IMG/VR virus record: IMGVR_UViG_3300044825_000904 | Coordinates: 1 to 64,000 of that record | From: a virus | Length of the DNA stretch: 64,000 bases | Reading direction: 5' to 3' (one strand) | Shown: positions 1-64,000 of the stretch, one piece after another | Layout: every line of letters begins with the position of its first letter | How positions within the stretch are numbered: the stretch's first letter is position 1 | The notes under the pieces: generated by a model | Seen by the model: the letters and a program-made list of their open reading frames with translations, nothing else | Database searches by the model: none | Told to the model about the DNA's origin: nothing | Translations under genes and position numbers: made by a program

Positions 1-2689
1 AATTGCCTATTACGACTTTATCGGCATTGCCTGTACCTGCAAATGTTCCGCTAATCCAACTTCCTGATGTTGCCGCAACCTGTAATCTAACCGCATTTAC
101 ATTGGATGTTGTCGCAACCGAAATTGCATCACCGTGATCATATATAAGGCTATTACCTAAAGTCGTCGAACCTGTAGCTTTAGGAATGTAATTAGTACCC
201 AATGAACCCGTAATACCACCTGCAGGCCCTGTTGATGTTGATCCATCAGCCATTAAAAACTGAGATGATGTACCACCTGATTTAATAAATTTATTAGCAG
301 TAATATCTCCGCTGAATGATGCTGAACCACTAGCGTTTAAAGTAATTCCACCAACCATTGATAATGGCTCGGTAACAAATGCAGCTCCATCTGCTTTTAC
401 ATAAATACCTGATGAAGTAGGGTCTGTGTTAATAAAGTTAGCAATATAGGTATCAACTGCAGCAGCACTTACTGTAATATAAGTTCCACTGTCTGTGATG
501 ATACTATCTGCAATTGTATTAGCTCCTGTTGCTTTAGGTACTTTTGTTGCAGTTAACGTACCCGTAATCTGACCAACAGGAGTTGTTCCTGACGTACCAG
601 ATGTACCGTTTGCACCTGAGGTCCCTGAACTACCGCTTAATCCTGAAGTCCCATCAACGCCTGAAGTTCCGTTAATACCTGAAGTACCTGATACACCTGA
701 CGTACCGCTTGCTCCTGAGCTACCGCTTGTTCCGCTAACTCCCGAACTACCACTAGTACCATTCACCCCACTTGTACCATCTACCCCTGACGTGCCACTA
801 ACTCCTGATGTGCCGCTAACTCCGCTAGTTCCATCAGCTCCTGATGTACCTGCGGTTCCAGATGTACCGTCCACACCACTTGTACCCGTTGTACCTGAAG
901 TTCCACTTACCCCTGATGTACCTGAAGTACCATTTACACCACTTGTACCTGATGCAGCAGCAATAGATGTAGTAACATATGAGTACTCACTATCTTCTGT
1001 GTACCATTCTGCAGTTTTTGCAGTGCTTACATTATTGTTATAGTAAATCTTGACAATCATTCTGTCTGTTGCAGAAATTGTCGTATGTGGAAACACAAAG
1101 TCTACTGTAGTCTCTGCAATTACACCTGTTCCAAACCAAGCTAAAAGAACTACAGATGAAGTAGCTAATGTACCATAAGGAGTACCTGTGGAGTCAGCAA
1201 GTTGTAATGTTACATAAACTTGAATGTTGTCATTATCCTGAGGCTTTAATGTATGAAGATGAAATCTTTGTACACCTGATGGGATAATAGTAAATCCTAA
1301 TTGCTCTGTTATAAATTGCTGAACCAACACATTTTGTTGGTTACCAGTCATATTAACAGTTATAGTCTGTAATGCACCTAATGTAGGTTCAGTAGACAAT
1401 ACTTTGTATGGAGAAACAGATGATGATTGGCTATTATTAAAATAATAAACACGACCACCACTAACACCGTCAACACCCGAAGTACCACCTGTACCTGATG
1501 TACCTGTAGTTCCTGATGTTCCTGAAACTCCACTTGTGCCTGTCGTGCCTGACGTACCACCTGTGCCATCTGTACCTGAAGTAGCTGATGTGCCTGAGCT
1601 TCCTGATGATCCACTAGTTCCATCAATGCCCGATGTACCATTTATTCCTGAAGTTCCATCAATACCCGATGACCCACTAGAACCAGATGTGCCTGAAGTA
1701 CCTCCTGTTCCGTCCGTACCCGATGTGCCACCTGTGCCGTCTGTACCACTTGTACCTCCTGTACCTGATGTACCGTTAACTCCACTAGTTCCGCTAGTTC
1801 CACCTGAACCGCTAGTTCCATCAATTCCTGATGTACCGCTAGTTCCAGTTGTACCACTAGTACCTCCCGTTCCATCTGTTCCACTAGTCCCTGATGTACC
1901 ATCTGTACCGTCGATACCGTCAATGCCTGAGGTACCTGATGTACCACGTGTACCTGACGTACCGTCTGAACCGTTTGTACCTGAAGAACCTGATGTACCA
2001 CCTGTACCTGAAGAACCTGATGTTCCTGTTGTACCTGATGAACCCGACGTACCTGTTGTACCTGATGAACCTGAAGTGCCTGTAGTACCTGAAGTGCCTG
2101 ATGTTCCATCAATACCTGATGTTCCAGATGAGCCTGAGCTACCGCTACTACCCGAGGTTCCTGTTGTTCCTGATGTGCCACTTACGCCTGAGAATAACCC
2201 AAATGTAACTGGCTCATCTTCGTTAACAATACCTGAATGGCCACCAATAAAATCTAAGTCTAAGAAATAGTAATCACCATCTTCAACAACAGCAGTTACT
2301 TTATATAATCCATACTCACTAGGAAATCCTGGACGGTTAACAAGAATAATTTTATCTAACCAAGCCTGCTCAATGAAGATACCTGGCTCAGTATTAGCCA
2401 TTGTCAAGAAAGAAACCTTGATGGTTCCTGCAAGTCCAATTACATCTACTGTGTCGTATGGATGGTCAACTAATTCAAACGTCTTCGCAGGTTGAGATTC
2501 TGTCGGAGCATACATTCTGTATGACCAGTTGAAACTACCTGTATCGATAATACCTACTCGATTAAAATAATCGGCAACAGCATTTGCTGTAAAGTTTTTG
2601 GTTATGAAGTCGTTGTTGGCGTCTGAGCCAATCCATTTATCATTACCAGTAACATATATGTCGTTTGGGTAGGTTTGTATTCTCGCCAT
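1..2689 (-). CDS. Collagen-like tail fibre, N-terminal 896 residues (runs off window)
   Basis: Starts with MARIQTYPND at 2689. An N-terminal domain of about 165 residues is probably the virion-anchoring part. Residues about 165-408 and 578-697 are Gly-Thr-Ser-Gly style repeats (GTSG, GSSG, GTTG, GIDG), separated by a globular domain of about 170 residues. The remainder has beta-rich fibre phrases such as GTGNADKVVIGN and is still open at base 1. The frame continues without a stop into the ORF at the right window edge if the ends are joined, giving one fibre of about 1,140 residues with a C-terminal S74 chaperone. Role: receptor-binding tail fibre or appendage (inferred from repeats and the chaperone). 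The Ser/Thr-rich repeats are plausible glycosylation targets. Confidence 0.85.
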   Translation of the reverse strand, partial: MARIQTYPNDIYVTGNDKWIGSDANNDFITKNFTANAVADYFNRVGIIDTGSFNWSYRMYAPTESQPAKTFELVDHPYDTVDVIGLAGTIKVSFLTMANTEPGIFIEQAWLDKIILVNRPGFPSEYGLYKVTAVVEDGDYYFLDLDFIGGHSGIVNEDEPVTFGLFSGVSGTSGTTGTSGSSGSSGSSGTSGIDGTSGTSGTTGTSGSSGTTGTSGSSGTTGTSGSSGTGGTSGSSGTNGSDGTSGTRGTSGTSGIDGIDGTDGTSGTSGTDGTGGTSGTTGTSGTSGIDGTSGSGGTSGTSGVNGTSGTGGTSGTDGTGGTSGTDGTGGTSGTSGSSGSSGIDGTSGINGTSGIDGTSGSSGSSGTSATSGTDGTGGTSGTTGTSGVSGTSGTTGTSGTGGTSGVDGVSGGRVYYFNNSQSSSVSPYKVLSTEPTLGALQTITVNMTGNQQNVLVQQFITEQLGFTIIPSGVQRFHLHTLKPQDNDNIQVYVTLQLADSTGTPYGTLATSSVVLLAWFGTGVIAETTVDFVFPHTTISATDRMIVKIYYNNNVSTAKTAEWYTEDSEYSYVTTSIAAASGTSGVNGTSGTSGVSGTSGTTGTSGVDGTSGTAGTSGADGTSGVSGTSGVSGTSGVDGTSGVNGTSGSSGVSGTSGSSGASGTSGVSGTSGINGTSGVDGTSGLSGSSGTSGANGTSGTSGTTPVGQITGTLTATKVPKATGANTIADSIITDSGTYITVSAAAVDTYIANFINTDPTSSGIYVKADGAAFVTEPLSMVGGITLNASGSASFSGDITANKFIKSGGTSSQFLMADGSTSTGPAGGITGSLGTNYIPKATGSTTLGNSLIYDHGDAISVATTSNVNAVRLQVAATSGSWISGTFAGTGNADKVVIGN

Positions 2690-2715
2690 TGAAAATGTCT
2701 TTACTTATTATCTAG

Positions 2716-2733
2716 CAAAAATACGCAAATTTA
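2716..2733 (-). promoter_or_regulatory. Possible late promoter -7 elements for the tail fibre
   Basis: On the minus strand two TAnnTTTG matches lie close together, TATTTTTG (2723-2716) and TAAATTTG (2733-2726), about 30-40 bases before the tail-fibre ATG. TAnnTTTG is the known Bacteroidetes -7 consensus. I see no clear TTG at the right distance upstream, so this is tentative. Confidence 0.4.
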
Positions 2734-3177
2734 TCTAAGTACTAGAAATTTGAAATAGGCATATAATATAATAATAGCCGACTCTATTAGGATAACTATA
2801 ATAGCCCAAGTAGGAACTAAGTATTTAATAACCTCAACGTTTTTTACACTAATGCTAGAATTATTTTTGCTTCTATACTTATCTTCGTACACTTGAGCGA
2901 TTGAATCAATGTCAACTGTGGCCTCAATCTTGCCACGTACGGAGCGAATTACTACTTGCCCTTGCGGTATCTTGATCTTGCTATAGAACGTGCTTAAAAT
3001 GCCAGAAGAATCGCATGGATTCTCAATTAATAATGTATCATGTACAGCTGGAAGTATTTTTGCTTCACGTTCAATTTTAAACGTATCTACACGCACAACC
3101 TCTTTATATTCAGTAATTGTTTTTGTTGGACGACAAGAAACTGTTATAATTAACAATAATAAAAACAATCTTTTCAT
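2731..3177 (-). CDS. u-spanin-like lipoprotein (lysis)
   Basis: 148 residues. The N-terminus has a basic-hydrophobic signal ending in a lipobox (ITVSC, Cys15), so it is predicted to be an outer-membrane lipoprotein. Near the C-terminus (about 122-146) is one hydrophobic segment that can sit in the inner membrane. A lipobox plus a C-terminal transmembrane segment in one chain is the architecture of unimolecular spanins such as T1 gp11, which fuse the two membranes in the last step of lysis. It directly follows the endolysin gene; the stop and start share base 3177. The function is inferred from architecture and position; I recognise no sequence family. Confidence 0.7.
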   Translation of the reverse strand: MKRLFLLLLIITVSCRPTKTITEYKEVVRVDTFKIEREAKILPAVHDTLLIENPCDSSGILSTFYSKIKIPQGQVVIRSVRGKIEATVDIDSIAQVYEDKYRSKNNSSISVKNVEVIKYLVPTWAIIVILIESAIIILYAYFKFLVLR

Positions 3178-4677: not shown

Positions 4678-4884
4678 TTACTTTTTTGTTTTATAAGGAT
4701 TCTCTCTATGCCACTTACGAATCGACTCAATACCATCCTCTATTGTCTTGGCTTTGGCCTTTTTAGTTAGGTTAATTTTATCCCATTTGCCAGCAGGTCT
4801 ACCTGCTGTATGGTCTACAATTACATCGCCCTGTTTATTCTTGAAAACTTTGTGGGTCTGCCCACCAACTTTTAAGATAGCCAT
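4678..4884 (-). CDS. 68-aa basic protein
   Basis: Starts MAILKVGGQTHKVFKNKQGD and ends in a basic helix-like tail (IRKWHRENPYKTKK). The first half looks like a small beta hairpin fold, the rest is Lys-rich. It is followed after 28 bases by the next small gene on the same strand. I do not recognise the family. Confidence 0.65.
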   Translation of the reverse strand: MAILKVGGQTHKVFKNKQGDVIVDHTAGRPAGKWDKINLTKKAKAKTIEDGIESIRKWHRENPYKTKK

Positions 4885-4890
4885 TACTTT

Positions 4891-5166
4891 TTACTTTTTC
4901 TTACCTCTTGCACGACGATCACCAGGCATATTTGAATGAGATCCACGGTTCTTGCTGGCTGATTCCTCAACGATACGGCCATTTCTTTTGTGGCTCATAT
5001 CTTTGCCATCGCCATCGCCATATTGACCACGGTCACGGTTGATTTTGTTAAGCTCAATACGCTTTTTTAATTGATCAGCTCTCTTGTTATATTCAGCCTG
5101 ATATTCAAGACGTTTTTTGCGAGCCTCCGGATGAGTCTTATAGTATTCAGATGTCCGTCCTGCCAT
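4891..5166 (-). CDS. 91-aa basic, probably helical protein
   Basis: Starts MAGRTSEYYKTHPEARKKRL. Residues 10-45 are a charged helix with many Arg/Lys (YNKRADQLKKRIELNK); a Gly/Asp stretch and a basic end (RRARGKKK) follow. It recalls small phage proteins with a 'SxYYxxHPEAxxKK' beginning, whose role is not known. It shares base 5166 with the preceding gene's stop. Confidence 0.7.
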   Translation of the reverse strand: MAGRTSEYYKTHPEARKKRLEYQAEYNKRADQLKKRIELNKINRDRGQYGDGDGKDMSHKRNGRIVEESASKNRGSHSNMPGDRRARGKKK

Positions 5167-5309
5167 TACTTTTTCTTCTTTTCTTTAGCAACAATTTTTT
5201 TTTCTTGCTTTAGCATTTCCGCAGTTGGCTTCTTTCCACTTCCTGATTTGGCACGGATATTATTCCACAAAGAGTTTTCTACTCCTAACTTATTTAGTTT
5301 CTTTTTCAT
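5166..5309 (-). CDS. 47-aa Lys-rich protein
   Basis: Read from ATG at 5309: MKKKLNKLGVENSLWNNIRA, ending AKEKKKK. More than a third of the residues are Lys/Arg. It fills exactly the space between its neighbours (stop overlaps the next ATG, start is next to the previous stop), which supports it as a gene. Function unknown. Confidence 0.6.
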   Translation of the reverse strand: MKKKLNKLGVENSLWNNIRAKSGSGKKPTAEMLKQEKKIVAKEKKKK

Positions 5310-5310
5310 A

Positions 5311-5583
5311 CTAACAGTTCCATTTTCTTAGTGCTAATGCTTTTCTTGTTGGCTCGCCATTTGGCTTCTTCATTGGTCCTTCTACGCCTGACATGCGAGC
5401 ACAGAATGACTTGCGTCTAGCAGCATCTCTGCTGCCCGCTTTTAATTTAGATGGGGGTGTAGTCACTGCTGTTTGCAGTTTGCTACCCGGATTCTCACGT
5501 CGGTACGACGCAACGCCTTTAGCGTTCAGACCACCAGTTTTACTTTTACCCTCTGACCGTTGCCATGCTGCTGTTTTAGCCAT
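5311..5583 (-). CDS. Conserved phage protein, DUF6321-like, 90 aa
   Basis: Start chosen at MAKTAAWQRSEGKS (5583). It contains AWQR.EGK, GGLNAKGVASYRRENPG, the phrase RRKSFCARMSG and the ending TRKALALRKWNC. I recognise this from phages of many hosts as a conserved protein of unknown function (DUF6321-like, from memory). Basic and soluble; presumably a virion- or DNA-associated factor, but that is a guess. The upstream HNH gene's stop overlaps its start by 8 bases. Confidence 0.75.
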   Translation of the reverse strand: MAKTAAWQRSEGKSKTGGLNAKGVASYRRENPGSKLQTAVTTPPSKLKAGSRDAARRKSFCARMSGVEGPMKKPNGEPTRKALALRKWNC

Positions 5584-6100
5584 TTTGTTTGTTATTAAAA
5601 TCAACAACTGATTTGCACAAATTTATAAAATTATCAACAGATGTATTACTCTTTGATATATTTACAATACGACAAACCAACTGTATATTTCCTTCAACAT
5701 ATCCTATTGATGAATCTATTCTATCAATGCTACAATTTGTTTGTATAACACCTTCCCCTAAAACCATAGTCATATCCCAACCAGTTAAAGCACATTTACC
5801 ATTTTGTTTATCCCAAAGGCTAATTAAATAGTCTATGTTTATATTATCGTCTTTCTTTCTGCCTAATGCTTTAGCCCTTAAATAAGACAAATATGATTTT
5901 ACTGATTTGGTTCTTTTAAAAGAAGTATACTTTAACTTATCTTCTCCCCAAGTTTGTTTGTGGTATAAAGATTGTTTTTCTAATATACATTTTTTACACC
6001 AAGAATTATACTTAGGTTCCCCTGATACTTTTTTCCCTGTTGTATAGAAGTTACTTAAATCAAAAACATTATTGCATTTTGTGCATTTTTTTGATGTCAT
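5576..6100 (-). CDS. HNH-family homing-type endonuclease
   Basis: 174 residues. The N-terminus holds zinc-type Cys pairs (KKCTKCNN at 4-11, SWCKKC at about 33-38). The C-terminal half has an HNH/endonuclease VII-like core: GKCALTGWDM, then SIDRIDSSIGYVEGNIQLVC and N-rich VNISKSN. Such proteins are free-standing homing endonucleases in phages. The gene sits inside the row of small basic genes; its start overlaps the end of the upstream gene by 32 bases and its stop overlaps the next start, suggesting tidy insertion. Codon use is more A/T-rich than in neighbouring late genes. Confidence 0.82.
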   Translation of the reverse strand: MTSKKCTKCNNVFDLSNFYTTGKKVSGEPKYNSWCKKCILEKQSLYHKQTWGEDKLKYTSFKRTKSVKSYLSYLRAKALGRKKDDNINIDYLISLWDKQNGKCALTGWDMTMVLGEGVIQTNCSIDRIDSSIGYVEGNIQLVCRIVNISKSNTSVDNFINLCKSVVDFNNKQNG

Positions 6101-6266
6101 TACTTGATTGTATTTTATTATTTACTTCTTTATTAAATGGGAATGCCCTGTTTAGTGCATCTCTTCTAGCAGCACAGCCGCAGTCATCACCTGCGACGGC
6201 TTTAACAGCGGCTGCAACGCCTGTTACTTTAGCAACATGCTCGACTACGTCTCCTAAGCCTTTCAT
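6069..6266 (-). CDS. 65-aa protein with GDDCGC motif
   Basis: Starts MKGLGDVVEHVAKVTGVAAA. An amphipathic N-terminal helix is followed by AGDDCGCAARRDALNRAFPF. This Cys pair with RRDALN and FPF recurs in small phage proteins of unknown function. The last 20 residues or so (KIQSSNDIKKMHKMQ) overlap the HNH gene and may be an altered tail created by that insertion (inference). Confidence 0.65.
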   Translation of the reverse strand: MKGLGDVVEHVAKVTGVAAAVKAVAGDDCGCAARRDALNRAFPFNKEVNNKIQSSNDIKKMHKMQ

Positions 6267-6267
6267 A

Positions 6268-6408
6268 TTAGCACATTTTCTTGATTGCTTTAGCAGCCTT
6301 AACTACCTTAGCAACCTTAACTGCTTTTTTAGCAGCTGCAATTTTAGTAATGCCCATTTGTGTTTTAGGCATTGGACGTGTCATTGGTGTTTTTTCTTGC
6401 TTTGCCAT
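6268..6408 (-). CDS. 46-aa basic Ala/Lys/Val-rich protein
   Basis: ATG at 6408: MAKQEKTPMTRPMPKTQMG, then a run of AKKAVKVAKVVKAAKAIKK that would form a basic amphipathic helix, ending KMC. The composition is like histone-tail or antimicrobial-type helices. Likely nucleic-acid or membrane associated; function unknown. Confidence 0.6.
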   Translation of the reverse strand: MAKQEKTPMTRPMPKTQMGITKIAAAKKAVKVAKVVKAAKAIKKMC

Positions 6409-6409
6409 C

Positions 6410-6700
6410 TTATTTCTTATTGAATAATTGTGAAGAAGAAGGAAGAGGTACATCACGACCCTTAGTTTTTGAGTCGATCAATCCTTGGTAACGCTCTGCG
6501 ATTGGTGCATAGTATGCGTTCTCCTTGCGTAATTGTGCAATGCGAGATGCAGCAGCCTTATCTTGATCTGGAGCTAGTCCTAAGTTGCGGTTTTTTTGAA
6601 GCATTGTACGCTCGTCTTCACGCTCAGTCATTGCTTTTCTCATGCCACCAACGACTCCCTTCAAGTCGCCAATCTTAATCATTGAATTTTTCTTAGCCAT
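6410..6700 (-). CDS. 96-aa basic protein, first gene of the block
   Basis: MAKKNSMIKIGDLKGVVGGM is followed by a charged helical region (REDERTMLQKNRNLG, SRIAQLRKENAYYAPIAERY) and a flexible end. It is the first gene of the minus-strand small-protein block, and a -7 promoter match lies 20 bases before its ATG. Soluble; function unknown. Confidence 0.7.
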   Translation of the reverse strand: MAKKNSMIKIGDLKGVVGGMRKAMTEREDERTMLQKNRNLGLAPDQDKAAASRIAQLRKENAYYAPIAERYQGLIDSKTKGRDVPLPSSSQLFNKK

Positions 6701-6719
6701 AATTTTTCTTATTATTCAA

Positions 6720-6737
6720 CAAAGATAAGTAATTTTG
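6720..6737. promoter_or_regulatory. Divergent promoter pair
   Basis: In the 52-base gap between divergent genes, TATCTTTG is found on the minus strand (6727-6720) and TAATTTTG on the plus strand (6730-6737). Both match TAnnTTTG, and each faces its own gene. The -33 TTG elements are poor in both directions, so strength is uncertain. Confidence 0.5.
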
Positions 6738-6752
6738 TAAAAATAAAATCTA

Positions 6753-7259
6753 ATGATAAAAACATACATGAAGCCTAGGAAGATTAAGCCTAGAGCTATT
6801 AAAGTGCGTGAATATAAAGTCAAGCCTATCGTAGTTAGACGTGAGGCTGTCGACAAAGACTTTCTAAAATACATCAAAGTTGTACGTGCCTGGGCTCGTC
6901 ATAAGCACGGATTGAGCCTAGAAGACTTTGAGATGCTATGTTATTTGTACTCCGAGCACGTTTTTGACGCCAATCAGTTCGACCAATACTGCCAAATATT
7001 TGGATTTACTAAAAATAGACGGCAAGATTTGATGCAGAAAGGTTTAATCGTGCATTTTCGCAAGCCTGAACCGGGCAAACGTGCGATTTATGAGCTGTCT
7101 TACCAAGCTAAGTCCATTATGCGACAGGTTTATGAGATGTTGCAGGGTGAAAGACCCATTCCAAAGCTATCTGACATCAAACCTAAAAGCAATAAACCCC
7201 ATCACTTTGCCACAAGGCAATATGACAGGGTCATTGGTAGACTTAATAAAGATTTTTAA
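6753..7259 (+). CDS. Winged-helix-like DNA-binding protein
   Basis: 168 residues, basic (pI clearly high by inspection). After a Lys/Arg-rich N-terminal tail (MIKTYMKPRKIKPRAIKVRE), residues 40-130 read like a MarR/PadR-type winged helix: HGLSLEDFEMLCYLYSEHVF, FGFTKNRRQDLMQKGLIVHF, RAIYELSYQAKSIMRQVYEM. A third basic part follows. It is the only plus-strand gene in the left arm, divergent from the small-protein block and facing the tRNA-like cluster, so it may control this region. Family assignment is by pattern only. Confidence 0.6.
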   Translation: MIKTYMKPRKIKPRAIKVREYKVKPIVVRREAVDKDFLKYIKVVRAWARHKHGLSLEDFEMLCYLYSEHVFDANQFDQYCQIFGFTKNRRQDLMQKGLIVHFRKPEPGKRAIYELSYQAKSIMRQVYEMLQGERPIPKLSDIKPKSNKPHHFATRQYDRVIGRLNKDF

Positions 7260-7339
7260 AAATGCTGTCTTTCCAGCTGTCAAGCAAGTTCTCCAGATTA
7301 ACGGACTGAATGCCATATTGGAAGATTGCTATCTCTCCG

Positions 7340-7459
7340 TAGCCAGTCGGGATTCGAACCCGCAAGTCACCGTGACAGCGACTATGTTTGTTATTATGCT
7401 AACACACCTATTGGATGCAAACCAATTCACATAGTGTATACCAATTCCACTACAGGCTA
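7340..7459 (-). tRNA. tRNA-Leu-like gene with enlarged anticodon domain
   Basis: The acceptor TAGCCTG (7459-7453) pairs with CTGGCTA (7346-7340) except for one T-T mismatch. The D arm GTGGAATTGGTATACAC is of tRNA-Leu type. The T arm has GGTTCGAATCC, and a long class II variable arm (GTCA-CGG-TGAC) is present. Between D arm and variable arm there are about 35 extra bases: an outer helix TATGT/ACATA encloses 41 bases that include an inner hairpin ATTGG-TTTGCAT-CCAAT, itself shaped like an anticodon arm reading UGC. Total 120 bases rather than about 85. The amino-acid identity is therefore uncertain. Confidence 0.6.
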
Positions 7460-7528
7460 AAATTTGATGTCTTTCCATCAGTCATTAGTTTAGTTACTAT
7501 GCTATAGTAACCAACATCACTAAAAGTG

Positions 7529-7600
7529 TAGTTAGGACATGAATCGAACATGTATCTTCGAGCGTTTCAGCCAATTAGGTTACCATTACCCCACCTAACT
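7529..7600 (-). tRNA. tRNA-like gene, anticodon position GAA
   Basis: 72 bases, standard length without CCA. Acceptor AGTTAGG/CCTAACT is 7 perfect pairs, T arm ACATG-TTCGATT-CATGT is perfect, and the D arm GGGT..ACCT is acceptable. The seven bases in the anticodon-loop position are CTGAAAC, which would read GAA (Phe). The flanking stem bases (ATTGG and GCTCG) hardly pair, so the anticodon arm is degenerate. Either an unusual tRNA or a decayed or altered one. Confidence 0.6.
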
Positions 7601-7605
7601 AATTA

Positions 7606-7669
7606 GTACCGTTCCTATCTACTTTATGAACATACGGTACAAAATGCTTCATCATAACCTTCGGATAGG
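7606..7669. other. Possible RNA pseudoknot between tRNA-like genes
   Basis: GTACCGT (7606-7612) pairs with ACGGTAC (7634-7640), and CCTATC (7614-7619) pairs with GATAGG (7664-7669). The order a-b-a'-b' gives an H-type pseudoknot with stems of 7 and 6 pairs. It lies in the spacer between the second and third tRNA-like genes. Could be a processing element or chance; seen only by eye. Confidence 0.35.
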
Positions 7670-7675
7670 TAAGTT

Positions 7676-7857
7676 TAGTCAGGACAGGATTCGAACCTGT
7701 AAGCCTTGGTGCCAGCCGCTAATGCGAGCCACGAACCAGGGATTGTCTTATTTAGACTCGCTTCCACACTATGATAGTTTAATACTACCCTACGAGTTGG
7801 CTTTTTGCGTCTACCTTCGGCCGGGAACTCCTGATACGACCCTTCCGCCACCTGACT
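7676..7857 (-). tRNA. Class II tRNA-like gene (Leu type) interrupted by insertions
   Basis: Acceptor AGTCAGG (7857-7851) pairs perfectly with CCTGACT (7683-7677), and the T arm ACAGG-TTCGAAT-CCTGT is perfect. The whole is 182 bases. In the D loop a 27-base insert (7814-7840) is bordered by direct GAAGG repeats; removing one copy restores a textbook Leu D arm (GCG-GAAGGTAGA-CGC). The anticodon region is also enlarged by about 70 bases with internal hairpins (for example GGTAGT/ACTATC). I cannot assign an anticodon. Too small for a standard group I intron. Confidence 0.55.
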
Positions 7858-7863
7858 AATATT

Positions 7864-7989
7864 TTAAAATCTTATCCACCAAGTGTGTGTCAACCACCCG
7901 AACATAAGTTCCCTTGTTCCATCTTCATGCATTTCAAATGCAATTAGTGGTAGGATAATTAAAGCAAACCCTTTAGATTTCTTCTCCAT
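7864..7989 (-). CDS. 41-aa hypothetical protein
   Basis: MEKKSKGFALIILPLIAFEM starts with a basic end and a short hydrophobic run, then a Trp-rich end (FGWLTHTWWIRF). It ends just before the third tRNA-like gene and starts 10 bases after the groS stop. Possibly a small membrane-associated peptide; may also be spurious. Confidence 0.4.
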   Translation of the reverse strand: MEKKSKGFALIILPLIAFEMHEDGTRELMFGWLTHTWWIRF

Positions 7990-7998
7990 ATTATTTAA

Positions 7999-8256
7999 TT
8001 AAAGAACTACTACCACATCTTTCTCTGTGATGACCGTATATAGGTCCTCATTGATGCGGATGGTGTGGCCAGCTGCACGATCAAAGTAGATAAATGAGCC
8101 TGGCTTAATTCCATCTACTAGCGAGCCTTGTGATACCACGGTTGCTTTCTTGTAGCGTAGCTCATTTGCATCCATTGCGGTCATAATTAAGCCGCCCTTG
8201 GACTTTGTCTCCTCTTCTTGAGGCACGATTAGAATATTCTTTCCGATTACTTTCAT
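7999..8256 (-). CDS. groS: GroES-type co-chaperonin
   Basis: 85 residues, slightly shorter than bacterial GroES (about 95). Typical features: N-terminal KNILIVPQEEETKSKGGLIM (the last part is the region of the mobile loop), KKATVVSQGSLVDGIKPGSFIYFDRAAG and the C-terminal strand YTVITEKDVVVVL. It caps the GroEL ring during protein folding. A groEL-like gene lies 1.8 kb upstream on the same strand, separated by two endonuclease genes and a small ORF, so the pair is likely a functional chaperonin system for virion proteins. A 16-base palindrome lies 25 bases before its ATG. Confidence 0.9.
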   Translation of the reverse strand: MKVIGKNILIVPQEEETKSKGGLIMTAMDANELRYKKATVVSQGSLVDGIKPGSFIYFDRAAGHTIRINEDLYTVITEKDVVVVL

Positions 8257-8280
8257 AACATTAATTATATTTTACATTTA

Positions 8281-8296
8281 TTTACAAATTTGTAAA
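8281..8296. promoter_or_regulatory. 16-bp perfect palindrome upstream of groS
   Basis: TTTACAAATTTGTAAA is perfectly self-complementary and lies just before the groS start. It contains CAAATTTG, one base off the TAnnTTTG -7 consensus. It could be an operator covering the groS promoter. No cognate regulator is known. Confidence 0.5.
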
Positions 8297-8446
8297 TTTT
8301 ATTTAACCTTATTATCAGAACTTGCAACTTTTTACAAGTTTCGTCAATAGTGTATATTAGTAATGCACACTTCCAACCTGTTCCAAATTGTAACGGTTTG
8401 GATAATTATCATTTACCATCCCATATTGGTTTGGATTATTAACATT

Positions 8447-10084: not shown

Positions 10085-11644
10085 CTACATTTGACGTACA
10101 TTTGTTATGACAGTTTCTGTAGATAATAGTGTTACTGCAACAGATACAGCATTTTTTAGAGCCTCCTTGCACACTTTAGTCGGGTCAATGATCCCAACGC
10201 TCATCATGTGGCAGTATGCCCCTGTAGCTACGTTCACCCCTATGCCTCCCTTAGACAACTGCTTACCTTCATCAAAGTCTGCACCATCCACATCTATGCC
10301 TGCATTGGATAGTATCTTGATCATTGGAGCCAGCATCGCCATTTGTAATATCTCGGTGCCTTTGTTCTCCACGTCCATAGTAGCAGCGATATCTTTTAAC
10401 GCCACGCCACCACCTGGAAGGATGCCTTCTTCTAGTGCTGCACGTACTGCACACACCGCATCGTCCACCCGGTCCTTCTTCTCTTTCTGCTCAATGTCTG
10501 AGTTAGCACCCACCTTGATGATAGCCACCCCACCACCTAGATTAGCGATGCGTTCTTTTAAGAATTCTTTCTCGACAGCCTGCATCTCCACCTCTATCTG
10601 CTCTTGCAACTCTTGCACTCTCTCATCCCCTGCTCCAACAGCATCGAAGATAATTGTATTGAACCGTGAGCTCACCACCTTGCCTGCTTGTCCGCAGTCG
10701 TCAATAGTGACCATCATTAAGTTGTCACCTGTCTGCTCAGAGAAATACTTAGCCCCTGTCGCAATAGCGATGTCCTGCATGATCTGATGACGCTTGTAGC
10801 CAAATGACGGAGGAATAATAGTGCTTACTTTTAGACCCAACTTAATCTTGTTCACGTTAAGTGAGTTTAGTGAGTTCTCATCGAGCTCCCCAATAATAAG
10901 CAATGAATGTCTGCCTTGGTGGATGAACTCTAGAATAGGCAAGATGTCGTTAAGGTTTGTAATGGGCTGGTCAGTCACCAAGATGTATGGCTTGTCTAGC
11001 ACAGCCTCTTGCTTCTTATGGTCTGTCACAAAGTACTTACTCGCAAACCCTCTGTCTATCTTCATGCCACTGACCACCTCAGCGTATGTGTCCGATGTCT
11101 CGGATGCTCCAACTGTCACTACACCACTTAAGCCAACTTGATTGTACGCATCAGCAATGATCTTGCCAATCTCCGCATCGCCATTGGCCGAGATAGTCGC
11201 CACGTCCACCAACTTATCTGATGTAATCTCCGTTGACATAGCAGTTAGCTCCTCAGCCACCTTAAGTGCTGCAGCCTGCACATCACGCAATACTTGTGTG
11301 GTATTGTCTTCTGGTGTAAGCACACCCATTGCCGAATGGATGATGGCTTGTGCCAGCACCATACTCGTCGTCGTCCCATCACCTGCTGAGTTAGCCGTCT
11401 TCTCAGATGCTTCTCGCATGATCATCACAGCCAAGTTCTCAGCTGGATCCATTAAGTTAATTGACTTAGCGACGGTCACACCATCCTTGGTTACTGTAAT
11501 GCCACCAACGTGTTGCTCCGACTCAATAAGCACCGTGCGACCACGAGCTCCTAGTGTAGACCCAACTGCATTTGCAATTGTATTAACACCCTTAATTAAT
11601 TTCTGTCTGCCTTCATCTCCGAAGACGATCTCTTTTACTATCAT
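10085..11644 (-). CDS. groL: GroEL-type chaperonin
   Basis: 519 residues, slightly shorter than bacterial GroEL (about 545). The ATP site is GDGTTT at 88-93, the catalytic Asp corresponds to Asp395 (VDDAV), and PGGGVAL is at 410-416. The apical domain spans about 180-370. The C-terminus ends NVRQM without the usual Gly-Gly-Met repeats that line the cavity. It forms ATP-driven folding chambers, probably with the GroES encoded downstream. Phage GroELs are known but uncommon. A good promoter lies 19 bases upstream, and a terminator or structured RNA follows. GC content is higher than in the neighbouring endonuclease genes. Confidence 0.95.
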   Translation of the reverse strand: MIVKEIVFGDEGRQKLIKGVNTIANAVGSTLGARGRTVLIESEQHVGGITVTKDGVTVAKSINLMDPAENLAVMIMREASEKTANSAGDGTTTSMVLAQAIIHSAMGVLTPEDNTTQVLRDVQAAALKVAEELTAMSTEITSDKLVDVATISANGDAEIGKIIADAYNQVGLSGVVTVGASETSDTYAEVVSGMKIDRGFASKYFVTDHKKQEAVLDKPYILVTDQPITNLNDILPILEFIHQGRHSLLIIGELDENSLNSLNVNKIKLGLKVSTIIPPSFGYKRHQIMQDIAIATGAKYFSEQTGDNLMMVTIDDCGQAGKVVSSRFNTIIFDAVGAGDERVQELQEQIEVEMQAVEKEFLKERIANLGGGVAIIKVGANSDIEQKEKKDRVDDAVCAVRAALEEGILPGGGVALKDIAATMDVENKGTEILQMAMLAPMIKILSNAGIDVDGADFDEGKQLSKGGIGVNVATGAYCHMMSVGIIDPTKVCKEALKNAVSVAVTLLSTETVITNVRQM

Positions 11645-60180: not shown

Positions 60181-62208
60181 ATGAAGCTACTATACTTAAT
60201 TCCACATTGCTCAACTGGAGGGATGCCCGGTTTTGTTTTAAAGAGTGTTCAAACTCTTTATAAGACATTTGAGATTGAGGTAGTAGAATATCAATGCCAT
60301 AGCTTAGACTATGTCGTGCAACGAAATGCTATCAAGGAGCTAGTTTCTTTTCATACTTTGCACGAGGACAAGATGGAGTTGTTCAACATCATCGCAAAAT
60401 TCAATCCCGACATTGTTCACATTCACGAGCCATCTGAGCGATTTAATCGTGATATGATTTCTGAGTTATATCGGGAAGACCGAAACTATCGAATCGTGGA
60501 GACGTGCCATGACGTGTCATTTAAACATGACATAGAAAAGATATTTCACCCTGATGCGTATTACTTCTGCACGCCATATCACTTAGAGACATTCGCTTCA
60601 TCTCCATCTTACAAAGAAGTGATTGAGTTTCCTATTGATGACAGGACTAGTGAGACGTATGAGAATCCTTTTTATACAAACAAAATAAACATAGTAAACG
60701 TAGGTCTTTGGACTCCTGGTAAGAATCAAGCTGAGGGGATTGAGATAGCTAGAAAGTATCCCGAGATGGACTTTCATTTTGTCGGAAACCAAGCTATAAA
60801 TTTCAAGCATTACTGGGAGCCATTAATGAAGGATTTGCCATCTAATGTTCACGTGTGGTTGGAGAGAAATGATGCACATAGGTTCATTAAGATGGCAGAT
60901 ATCTTTATGTTCAATTCTACGTGGGAGTGTAACCCACTAGTATTACGTGAGGCAATATCTTTTGGTAAACCAATCATTGCCCACAACCTGCCACAGTACG
61001 GCTCGATGTTTGATAAGTATATTCAGCCTATCGACACCGATCTAAATACTATTAAATGTAATTACAATGTACCTACAGATAATACATCAGTTAAATTCTG
61101 GGACAAGCAAAAGGCATTCTACAACAAAGTAATGACGCTAGACAAACAAGAACAAGATGTTAAAATCATCCAACACTTTGTTGGTCAGCCATACCTAGAG
61201 ATTAAGTCAGGACTGAAAGCCGACTTTAAGGTACAATACTTTGATGCTGACAAGTTAGTCTATGAGAATACTATCGGATCAAACTGTTGGGTCAAACTTA
61301 ATAGACAATACTATACTAAGTGGCATAGTAAAGTCTATATGGATGGTAGACTAATACACGATAACGTACTTGACCTAGAAGGCAAGCGTGTGTATATCGC
61401 TTTATCTAGTAAGTCATTAGGCGATACAATTGCCTGGGCACCATATGCTGAAGAGTTTCAGAAGAAACATAAGTGTAAGGTAATATTATCTACATTCTTA
61501 AATAAGATATTATTTATGCCTGAGATAGAGTTAGTGGAACCTGGAACGGTTGTGCCTAATATCTATGCTCAGTATAACATTGGTTGGTTCTATGATTCAA
61601 ACAAGGAGCCTGAGTTACCAAATACTATTAAACTACAAGAGGCAGCTACCAAGATTCTTGGTCTTGAGTTCAAAGAGATTAAGCCAACAATAATATATCC
61701 ATACAAAAAAGTAATAAACGACACTAAGTATGTGACCATTGCTACCAACTCTACATCAGGGTGTAAGTTTTGGACAAAGGAAGGTTGGCAAGGAGTAATT
61801 AACTATTTACACGAGAAAGGCTATAAAGTAATTAACGTATCGCTTGAAGAGAATCCGTTCGATAATTGTGAGCAGATTATTAATCACAACATCTTTGATA
61901 CGATGGCGTTGATCGACCACAGTGAATTCTTTATTGGATTGGGAAGTGGTGTGAGTTGGCTTGCTTGGGCTCTAGGTAAAGAAGTAGTTATGATAAATAA
62001 CTTCGCTGAAGAGGACCACGAGTTTGAGTGTATACGCATCACAAATAAAAATGTTTGCAATGGGTGCTGGAACAATCAGAACTTTAAATTTGACAAATCG
62101 TGGGACTGGTGCCCTATATACAAAAATACTCCTCGACAATTTGAATGTCAGAGGAGTATAACTGCTGATGATGTAATTAATAGACTAGTCCTTCTTAAAA
62201 ACATTTAA
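60181..62208 (+). CDS. Two-domain glycosyltransferase, GT4-like plus TibC-like
   Basis: 675 residues. Residues 1-335 are a GT-B/GT4-like fold: LIPHCSTGGMPGFVLKSVQT, NPDIVHIHEPSERFNRDMIS, PLVLREAISFGKPIIAHNLP (the C-terminal Glu and Gly-rich motif). Residues 340-675 resemble bacterial autotransporter heptosyltransferases (TibC/Aah/BAHT): SKSLGDTIAWAPYAEEFQKK, IGLGSGVSWLAWALGKEVVM and four Cys (626, 629, 644, 656) in NVCNGCW, WDWCP and FECQRS, an arrangement like the iron site of that family. The only plus-strand gene in the late region. Might add heptose or other sugar to virion proteins such as the Ser/Thr-rich fibre (inference). Confidence 0.78.
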   Translation: MKLLYLIPHCSTGGMPGFVLKSVQTLYKTFEIEVVEYQCHSLDYVVQRNAIKELVSFHTLHEDKMELFNIIAKFNPDIVHIHEPSERFNRDMISELYREDRNYRIVETCHDVSFKHDIEKIFHPDAYYFCTPYHLETFASSPSYKEVIEFPIDDRTSETYENPFYTNKINIVNVGLWTPGKNQAEGIEIARKYPEMDFHFVGNQAINFKHYWEPLMKDLPSNVHVWLERNDAHRFIKMADIFMFNSTWECNPLVLREAISFGKPIIAHNLPQYGSMFDKYIQPIDTDLNTIKCNYNVPTDNTSVKFWDKQKAFYNKVMTLDKQEQDVKIIQHFVGQPYLEIKSGLKADFKVQYFDADKLVYENTIGSNCWVKLNRQYYTKWHSKVYMDGRLIHDNVLDLEGKRVYIALSSKSLGDTIAWAPYAEEFQKKHKCKVILSTFLNKILFMPEIELVEPGTVVPNIYAQYNIGWFYDSNKEPELPNTIKLQEAATKILGLEFKEIKPTIIYPYKKVINDTKYVTIATNSTSGCKFWTKEGWQGVINYLHEKGYKVINVSLEENPFDNCEQIINHNIFDTMALIDHSEFFIGLGSGVSWLAWALGKEVVMINNFAEEDHEFECIRITNKNVCNGCWNNQNFKFDKSWDWCPIYKNTPRQFECQRSITADDVINRLVLLKNI

Positions 62209-62474: not shown

Positions 62475-62810
62475 TTACACAATAGGTTCTTCAACTACAA
62501 CTTCTTCTTCTACAATTGGCTCAGGAGGTACTGGAGGAACATATTCTCCTGTAATAACTAGGTTTAATTGACCTGCAATCCAATCCCAAGCATAAGTATC
62601 TTGTGACCATTCTGCATAAGCCTCTCCTGTCATAGACAGATTACCTTGAGCAACTTGCACTCCTACATTGCCATCTTCGGTTGTAGTAAATAATCCGTAC
62701 CAAAAAGTAGCAGATGTATTTAAAGTTACATTTACTGCATAAGAGTTAAGGATAGTCGCTTGTTGTACTGTACCATTGTCCCAAATTGAGACTGCTTCGA
62801 TAGTTTTCAT
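62475..62810 (-). CDS. Tail-associated protein, 111 aa
   Basis: MKTIEAVSIWDNGTVQQATI, beta-rich (ATFWYGLFTTTEDGNVGVQV, YAEWSQDTYAWDWIAGQLNL), ending in a Pro/Glu/Val repeat (PPVPPEPIVEEEVVVEEPIV). Phage proteins of this style are often tail or fibre accessory proteins. Follows the GYNGS-module gene. Confidence 0.62.
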   Translation of the reverse strand: MKTIEAVSIWDNGTVQQATILNSYAVNVTLNTSATFWYGLFTTTEDGNVGVQVAQGNLSMTGEAYAEWSQDTYAWDWIAGQLNLVITGEYVPPVPPEPIVEEEVVVEEPIV

Positions 62811-62839: not shown

Positions 62840-63274
62840 TTAAGGACAAAAAAGTTGTCCTGATACAATTTGTATCGATCCGTTATATCCAGCAGGTAAT
62901 GTAGTTTGAAATATTCCATTGTAATAATAGAACACAGGACTACCACTTGGTAGTACATAACGCTGACCCAATCCCAATACAGGAGTAATCTTAGTCCACG
63001 CAGCAGGTCCACCTGAGCAATGATTAAGTTGATAATAAGTGTAAGAAGATGCTACTAAATTGCTTTTAACTACTAATTGATTATCAGTCTTACCCGATAA
63101 AGGAGAAGTCTGAATATCCACTGTTGTTAAAGCACCTAGCTTAGTAACTTCCCTATTACTAGGTATACCTGGAGGAGGTATAGTTCCAATCTGTATAAAT
63201 ACATTATTATTTACCGCATCCTGAAGATTAGCCCAACTCACACATTGATTACTTGCTATTCCTGCCCAAGACAT
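62840..63274 (-). CDS. Tail protein with GYNGS end module, 144 aa
   Basis: MSWAGIASNQCVSWANLQDA, then YYQLNHCSGGPAAWTKITPV, GLGQRYVLPSGSPVFYYYNG, LPAGYNGSIQIVSGQLFCP. The C-terminal 65 residues match the C-terminal unit of the 1372-aa tail protein (YYELSECS, VGRRYVLP, PPGYNGSIQITS, CP). One base separates it from the fibre stop. Likely a receptor-side or capping piece of the tail. Confidence 0.68.
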   Translation of the reverse strand: MSWAGIASNQCVSWANLQDAVNNNVFIQIGTIPPPGIPSNREVTKLGALTTVDIQTSPLSGKTDNQLVVKSNLVASSYTYYQLNHCSGGPAAWTKITPVLGLGQRYVLPSGSPVFYYYNGIFQTTLPAGYNGSIQIVSGQLFCP

Positions 63275-63275
63275 A

Positions 63276-64000
63276 TTAGTTTAAGTTTAATAATTGTTCT
63301 AATTCTGATACACGTTTCTCTAATCTTGCAATCTTTGCTGTATGCACCTCACGATAAGAAAGACTCAGTAATCCGTCTGTTCCTTTGCTAACTGCACTTG
63401 GTAATATTTCTTGTACATCTTGTGCAAAGTATCCAAGTTCTTCTTTACCATTCTTAATATACAACTTAGCTATAATAGATTCAATACCTTTAGTTTGATA
63501 ATTATCTTCAATTAAAGTCTTAATAGTTTTATCTGAAGATTCAAAGAAACTTGCAGCTGTTACAGCACCACCATTTGTCATTGTTAATAATGCTGTACTA
63601 TTTCTTCCAATCGCAAATTTATCTGTTCCGACAGAACAAACACCAATCCCAATATCCCAATACATATCTGCAGCCGCATTTCCTGCCATTCTAAGCATTG
63701 CACCATATGTAGTTCCTGTATATCCATTAACCCCATTTTGAGTGTATGATACGTGAGGATTAATGTGCATCACCCATCTATCATTAGAACTTCCATATAA
63801 TGTTGGATATGATGCACTTCCTGCCCAAGATGCTTGTACTCCTCCTAATATCGCCTTAAATGAACCGGTATCCATTGCAATTTGTCCATTTACATAAACA
63901 TTGTATCCTGCATCTGTATTAGTGTTTATTAAAATATTTCCATTTGTATTGATTTTTAAATATTGAGTACCACTAACATTGAATGATTGGTAATTATATG
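63276..64000 (-). CDS. Tail-fibre C-terminus with S74 intramolecular chaperone
   Basis: About 241 residues, open at the right edge. The upper part reads SYNYQSFNVSGTQYLKINTN, continuing from the left-edge fibre. The last 95 residues or so are a Peptidase_S74-type chaperone: FFESSDKTIKTLIED (the Ser-Asp-x-x-x-Lys autocleavage region), ELGYFAQDVQEILPSAVSKG, LLSLSYREVHTAKI and the coiled end IARLEKRVSELEQLL. Such ends trimerise the fibre and are then cut off. Joined to the left-edge fragment it gives one gene. Confidence 0.85.
   Translation of the reverse strand, partial: YNYQSFNVSGTQYLKINTNGNILINTNTDAGYNVYVNGQIAMDTGSFKAILGGVQASWAGSASYPTLYGSSNDRWVMHINPHVSYTQNGVNGYTGTTYGAMLRMAGNAAADMYWDIGIGVCSVGTDKFAIGRNSTALLTMTNGGAVTAASFFESSDKTIKTLIEDNYQTKGIESIIAKLYIKNGKEELGYFAQDVQEILPSAVSKGTDGLLSLSYREVHTAKIARLEKRVSELEQLLNLN

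Follow-up and report, generated by a model that had tools for sequence, protein, structure and literature searches.

Gly-x-x repeats carrying O-glycans are known from BclA of Bacillus, from mimivirus collagen and from the cuticle collagen of Riftia, in the last of which galactosyl-threonine stabilises a proline-poor triple helix. TibC has a proven substrate, TibA, whose gene neighbours its own; the enzyme binds iron through Cys-339, Cys-342, Cys-358 and Cys-370, and its thumb links dimers into a dodecamer (Yao et al. 2014, PMC4358343). In mycobacteriophages, virion proteins are glycosylated, a modification credited to phage enzymes (Freeman et al. 2023, as cited in PMC12619734).

The gene that we compare with these systems is an intact open reading frame of 675 codons, from ATG to stop, in the window, by which we mean the whole 64,000-nucleotide stretch of viral DNA analysed. 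As originally predicted, it is a lone plus-strand gene in the late region, the only one of any size amid late genes that otherwise run on the minus strand (about 34.7 kb to 64 kb). It is flanked on one side by genes for terminase, portal and virion proteins, and on the other by small genes and the C-terminus of a tail fibre. Its features are the following.

60181..62208, plus strand: gene for a GT4-TibC fusion glycosyltransferase, 675 aa (open reading frame, profile matches, structure model)
60181..61140, plus strand: N-terminal GT4 domain (GT-B, retaining type), residues about 1-320, with the EX7E pair E249/E257 (profile matches to PF00534 and PF13692; conservation)
61159..61368, plus strand: seven-strand segment where TibC has its N-terminal beta-barrel, residues 327-396 (secondary structure of the model; full-domain TibC match)
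61369..62205, plus strand: TibC-type catalytic domain, residues 397-675, without the beta-hairpin thumb insertion (profile, alignment, model)
61423..61425, plus strand: Asp415, in the column of the TibC catalytic Asp110, LGD motif (alignment to the TibC structure)
62056..62148, plus strand: predicted iron-finger cysteines C626, C629, C644 and C656 (alignment with TibC Cys-339/342/358/370)

The N-terminal domain belongs to family GT4, as judged from a PF00534 match above cut-off over residues 161-277 (E 9.9e-11, 41.9 bits against a cut-off of 26.4) and from the presence of the EX7E pair; PF13692 also scores above its cut-off. The glutamates of this pair, K181 and a GGMP loop are kept in 34 aligned relatives. 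Profile searches of the 675-aa protein also returned an NCBIfam match to an AcrIIA2-family anti-CRISPR protein, which we rejected as noise (17.1 bits against a cut-off of 40).

The original prediction, which described a GT4-like domain fused to one resembling the autotransporter O-heptosyltransferases, had proposed a profile search of the C-terminal half and a structure prediction as checks, and both came out in its favour. Residues 350-668 match TIGR04414 (hepto_Aah_TibC) with an E-value of 1.3e-72 and 244.8 bits, above the curated cut-off of 200, and phmmer aligns about 300 residues of this half with the TibC crystal structure 4rap (E 1.1e-44). The equivalogs specific for lipopolysaccharide enzymes of the WaaC, WaaF and WaaQ class were not reached (TIGR02193, 23.0 bits against 185.3; TIGR02201, 21.6 against 170.2). 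An AlphaFold model of the 675-aa protein (pLDDT 88.5), built with the phage's own relatives, matches TibC (4rap/4rb4) in Foldseek with an E-value of about 1e-27 and a TM-score of about 0.8 over the target, and in its match to 4rap shows the N-terminal beta-barrel and GT-B core fold of TibC; retaining GT4 enzymes are its other structural neighbours.

Two alignments were used to follow individual residues, one (A1) of the window protein and 33 relatives, the other (A2) of 16 diverse phage TibC domains with identities down to 31%. Asp415, the column of which is mutated in 4rb4 (the D110A mutant of TibC), is invariant in 34 close relatives and 16 diverse ones (A1, A2). The four cysteines said to be placed like an iron site do pair one to one with the iron-binding cysteines of TibC, which makes them putative iron ligands here, and they are invariant in the 34 GT4-TibC fusions (A1) and in the 16 diverse domains (A2). 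The beta-hairpin thumb of TibC is absent from the window protein and its 33 A1 relatives, which have a gap at TibC residues about 258-270, F265 and V266 included; this argues against a ring dodecamer like that of TibC. Some other phage members (A2) carry an insertion at the thumb position.

These matches bear on what the enzyme might modify. Serotype-converting phages alter the host surface to block superinfection, and the literature consulted often explains phage glycosyltransferases in this way or as DNA modifiers. The present enzyme could likewise act on lipopolysaccharide, a host glycoprotein or the S-layer, the more so as PF01075 is the lipopolysaccharide heptosyltransferase family, and any link with repeat-bearing fibres would then reflect a common host group. 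However, the C-terminal domain bears the protein-O-heptosyltransferase signature and not just PF01075, and the distribution of enzyme and repeats, as described below, speaks further against such a role. The genes concerned are these.

3..2689, minus strand: 5' part of the tail-fibre gene with G-T/S-S arrays, running off the window edge (open reading frame, tail-fibre match)
1586..2188, minus strand: G-x-x array 1, fibre residues 168-368
1451..1576, minus strand: G-x-x array 2, fibre residues 372-413
581..949, minus strand: G-x-x array 3, fibre residues 581-703
63276..63998, minus strand: C-terminal part of the tail-fibre gene (PHROG tail-fibre matches)
62840..63274, minus strand: another small gene between the enzyme slot and the fibre, also kept in L126, a relative without the enzyme
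62475..62810, minus strand: small gene flanking the enzyme slot towards the fibre, kept in L126
59107..59670, minus strand: GroES-like gene on the side of the enzyme slot away from the fibre, kept in L126
56171..58384, minus strand: terminase large subunit, which marks the phage backbone in the control set and in the tree

Where TibC and AAH have a self-associating autotransporter encoded next door, the enzyme here has as its neighbour a tail fibre bearing G-x-x arrays. The three arrays together comprise 366 G-x-x residues, of which 181 are serine or threonine, in agreement with the roughly 360 repeat residues originally predicted. Their placement 5 kb from the enzyme on a circular map was not established: a 65,151-bp contig corresponding to the window showed no terminal overlap, and simple joining of its ends disrupts the fibre reading frame. 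Nevertheless, in related contigs the two terminal pieces are parts of one and the same fibre, the join lying outside the window, and intact relatives (L003, L004, L006, L014 and others) have a single fibre reading frame of about 1,300-1,800 aa, convergent with the enzyme gene. The array lies downstream of the enzyme in 31 of 46 loci, at a median distance of 3.9 kb and on the opposite strand in every case, so that the linkage stands without circularity. Homologues of GroEL (10085-11644, minus strand) and of GroES (the gene listed above) are encoded apart in this phage.

Over the stretch compared, the 65,151-bp contig is identical to the 104-kb source record (G000) up to base 64,932. Positions 64933-104271 of the latter hold a late-gene block of their own and a fibre C-terminus that is 80-92% alike. 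The second late-gene block and the homologous fibre ends at both joints disfavour the 104-kb record as a real larger genome; it is probably a chimera past base 64,932, with the fibre C-terminus as the likely point of mis-joining. By terminase, the nearest isolates are the Flavobacterium 'elemo' phages (44%) and Cellulophaga phages, one uncultured record being closer (66%), and this kinship makes a flavobacterial host likely.

We collected 80 virus contigs encoding relatives of this two-domain protein and searched 48 whole records for arrays. A GTSGxxGTSG coding pattern was present in 41 of these enzyme-selected records, and a looser Ser/Thr pattern added G058 and G065, giving Gly-[Thr/Ser]-[Thr/Ser] arrays in 43 of the 48; arrays were not found in the remaining five, which are four fragments and G064 (84 kb). 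The GTSGxxGTSG pattern was absent from all 22 records that have a related terminase but lack the enzyme (43/48 vs 0/22, Fisher p 9e-14, a guide only as the records share ancestry). In the reverse test, 46 records picked by the repeat pattern alone were searched with the TIGR04414 model, which was found in 20 of them (19 above cut-off) and in 9 of the 12 longer than 100 kb. Phages with Gly-Pro collagen arrays, the specificity control, lacked the enzyme throughout (0/33), while a single one of 14 random virus records had it; that record, G129, holds 101 Ser/Thr-Gly array matches, and the other 13 hold none. The comparison of 20/46 with 0/46 (Fisher p 1.3e-7) is again a guide, since the common ancestry of records and trees causes such values to overstate independence.

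Two records stand somewhat apart. The 636-kb phage W03 (LR756504.1) encodes a single-domain TibC at 457181-458230, and a Ser/Thr-Gly array was not found in it; either its TibC has a substrate other than arrays or the array has diverged. Virus record G091 (locus L575) has, besides the main fusion, three more TibC-like or partial TibC-like reading frames within 20 kb, which are possibly paralogues for different fibres.

On a terminase tree of 59 rows, the enzyme state changes four times, at least three of these changes being forced by well-supported branches, and the arrays change along with the enzyme at each switch. Thus, L024 and L059, which have both enzyme and arrays, nest within relatives that have neither, and L092, which has neither, nests beside L013, which has both. 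Among rows whose flanks permit a call, 20 have enzyme and arrays, 19 have neither, none has arrays alone, and one has the enzyme alone, this last being a short fragment cut off near the expected start of the array. L126 has the gene order of the window (fibre, two small genes, groES, terminase), with no enzyme in the slot between the small genes and groES, and its fibre of 1,889 aa is free of repeats. Such joint gain and loss within one phage backbone counts against a role at the host surface.

Enzyme and repeats are also paired in phages unrelated to this one; among the cases are longer proteins that join an FkbM methyltransferase, a DXD glycosyltransferase, a GT4 and a TibC domain in a single chain. 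Microcystis phage Mel-JY01 (L181) encodes a 1,226-aa GT4...TibC protein at 4750-8430. A long GTSG reading frame (2-3052, plus strand, at least 1,016 aa) lies about 1.7 kb away and is not annotated as a fibre. In the Mel-JY01 record, the TibC fusion is annotated as methyltransferase FkbM, and the place of the GTSG fibre is taken by 'hypothetical' reading frames, most of them on the opposite strand. The pairing of enzyme and repeats is also present in a 735-kb phage. Because the association thus holds for phages of flavobacteria, for a cyanophage and for a 735-kb phage, a single common host group fails to explain it.

A scan of bacterial genomes with a narrow alignment gave no matches, and one with a broader alignment gave 78 chromosomal relatives. 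Thirteen of these, which rank with the nearest relatives of the phage proteins, lie near GSSG/GTSG arrays, 12 of them within 1.2 kb. The array proteins are mostly small, with a signal peptide or lipobox, and several read as collagen-like by Pfam. The bacterial pairs (L592-L599, L601-L604, L643) come from Methylobacter, Methylomicrobium, Polaromonas and other Gammaproteobacteria or Burkholderiales; L602, a contig of a Flavobacteriales metagenome-assembled genome, clusters with a phage protein and is possibly viral. The TibC tree has two branches, a classical one of 62 bacterial enzymes and one of 46 phage and bacterial enzymes. Arrays lie nearby in 41 of the 46 in the latter and in none of the 62 in the former, in which an AIDA autotransporter adjoins all six enzymes checked. 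Support for the fork that joins the array-associated branch is moderate (SH-aLRT 86, by a quick method). Since TibC, in the classical branch, has its proven substrate TibA as neighbour, neighbourhood is a fair guide to substrate. With the pairing found even in bacterial chromosomes without a phage, we regard modification of the host surface as an unlikely role for the enzyme.

Still less probable, in our view, is that the enzyme glycosylates another virion protein, such as the capsid or tail tube, with the fibre arrays a correlated marker of large aquatic phages. The association follows the repeat sequence and not one structural gene, as phages with Gly-Pro collagen arrays lack the enzyme and the bacterial relatives have repeats adjoining the enzyme gene; what speaks for this explanation is the glycosylation of mycobacteriophage capsid and tail-tube proteins (reported in work cited in PMC12619734). 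Modification of phage DNA (glucosylated, hypermodified bases) is very improbable: glycosyltransferases of that kind are known from phages, but TibC-family enzymes target serine in proteins, no repeat association would be expected, and a non-exhaustive look revealed no base-hypermodification gene.

As this enzyme branch is tied to Gly-Thr/Ser repeat proteins in viruses and bacteria alike, the phage protein therefore probably glycosylates its own tail fibre. The predicted pairing with the GTSG fibre has gained support from co-occurrence with controls, coupled gain and loss and bacterial adjacency; the modification itself is what we infer, and the missing thumb stands on the other side. We consider it probable that the protein is a bifunctional cytoplasmic O-glycosyltransferase. 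Its TibC-type domain would attach the first sugar to serine or threonine of the Gly-[Thr/Ser]-[Thr/Ser] fibre repeats within the infected cell's cytoplasm, either ahead of virion assembly or while it is under way, and the fused GT4 domain would probably extend the glycan by another sugar; in longer relatives, the FkbM domains would methylate the glycan. Such a modification would decorate the long fibre shaft, which is proline-poor and collagen-like, and may also lend it stiffness or shield it; on a proline-poor G-T-S repeat, a glycan could stabilise the shaft or protect it against proteases.

ADP-heptose is the donor used by the TibC family. No genes for sugar nucleotides or for ADP-heptose synthesis were found in this phage. 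A TIGR02199-like domain occurs in 12 of the 48 enzyme-positive records, only that of G099 being above cut-off: the region 144669-145088 of this record encodes a phage-borne ADP-heptose synthase adenylyltransferase domain (183 bits, above the curated cut-off). A 'cytidylyltransferase-like' gene of Mel-JY01 was considered as an ADP-heptose synthase and was rejected by NCBIfam.

If the phage enzyme does glycosylate its own fibre, a recurrent phage gene now annotated as autotransporter heptosyltransferase, after its family name, or in Mel-JY01 as FkbM methyltransferase, gains a testable function, and the Gly-Ser/Thr repeat fibres of many environmental phages a likely modification. As an isolated phage that has both enzyme and repeats, Mel-JY01 may make the idea directly testable. 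A second class of TibC-type substrate, collagen-like repeats, is predicted, free-living bacteria included, and virion glycans would influence phage adsorption, stability and protein-based detection in mass-spectrometry surveys. More tentatively, and with a somewhat less than even chance of holding, we suggest that phages and bacteria share a large, unnamed TibC-type branch dedicated to the O-glycosylation of collagen-like Gly-[Ser/Thr]-[Ser/Thr] repeats, that the single-chain glycan builders of many aquatic phages (methyltransferase, glycosyltransferase, TibC) decorate their own fibres, and that the glycan replaces proline as the stabiliser of the shaft.

Self-glycosylation of a phage fibre had been put forward as new. 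Virion glycosylation as such is known, from the mycobacteriophage work cited above, while its TibC-type form with Gly-Ser/Thr fibre repeats appears to be new. A search of the open-licence literature, in which silence is not proof of absence, found nothing that pairs TibC-type enzymes with phage fibres, and both the combination of TibC-type enzyme, GT4 fusion and Gly-Ser/Thr fibre repeats and the second TibC branch appear to be unreported there.

We know of no TibC-type enzymes or Gly-Ser/Thr fibre repeats in mycobacteriophage glycosylation, the targets of which, as far as the citing article describes them, are the C-termini of capsid and tail-tube subunits. The glycosylated collagen-like proteins BclA, mimivirus collagen and Riftia collagen differ in that other enzyme families are involved and none is a phage fibre. 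The N-terminal domain shares PF00534 and the EX7E pair with family GT4 (PimA, BshA, PglA), members of which are structural neighbours of the model, but here it is fused to a TibC domain and its acceptor is presumably the first sugar on the fibre. TibC/AAH (BAHT, TIGR04414, GT9-like) has the fold, catalytic aspartate, beta-barrel and four-cysteine iron finger in common with the phage enzyme, acts on Ser-rich repeat proteins and is encoded beside its substrate. In contrast to TibC/AAH, however, the present enzyme is phage-encoded, fused to GT4, devoid of the thumb hairpin and placed on a separate branch of the tree, and its partner is a Gly-Ser/Thr collagen-like fibre instead of a beta-helical autotransporter.
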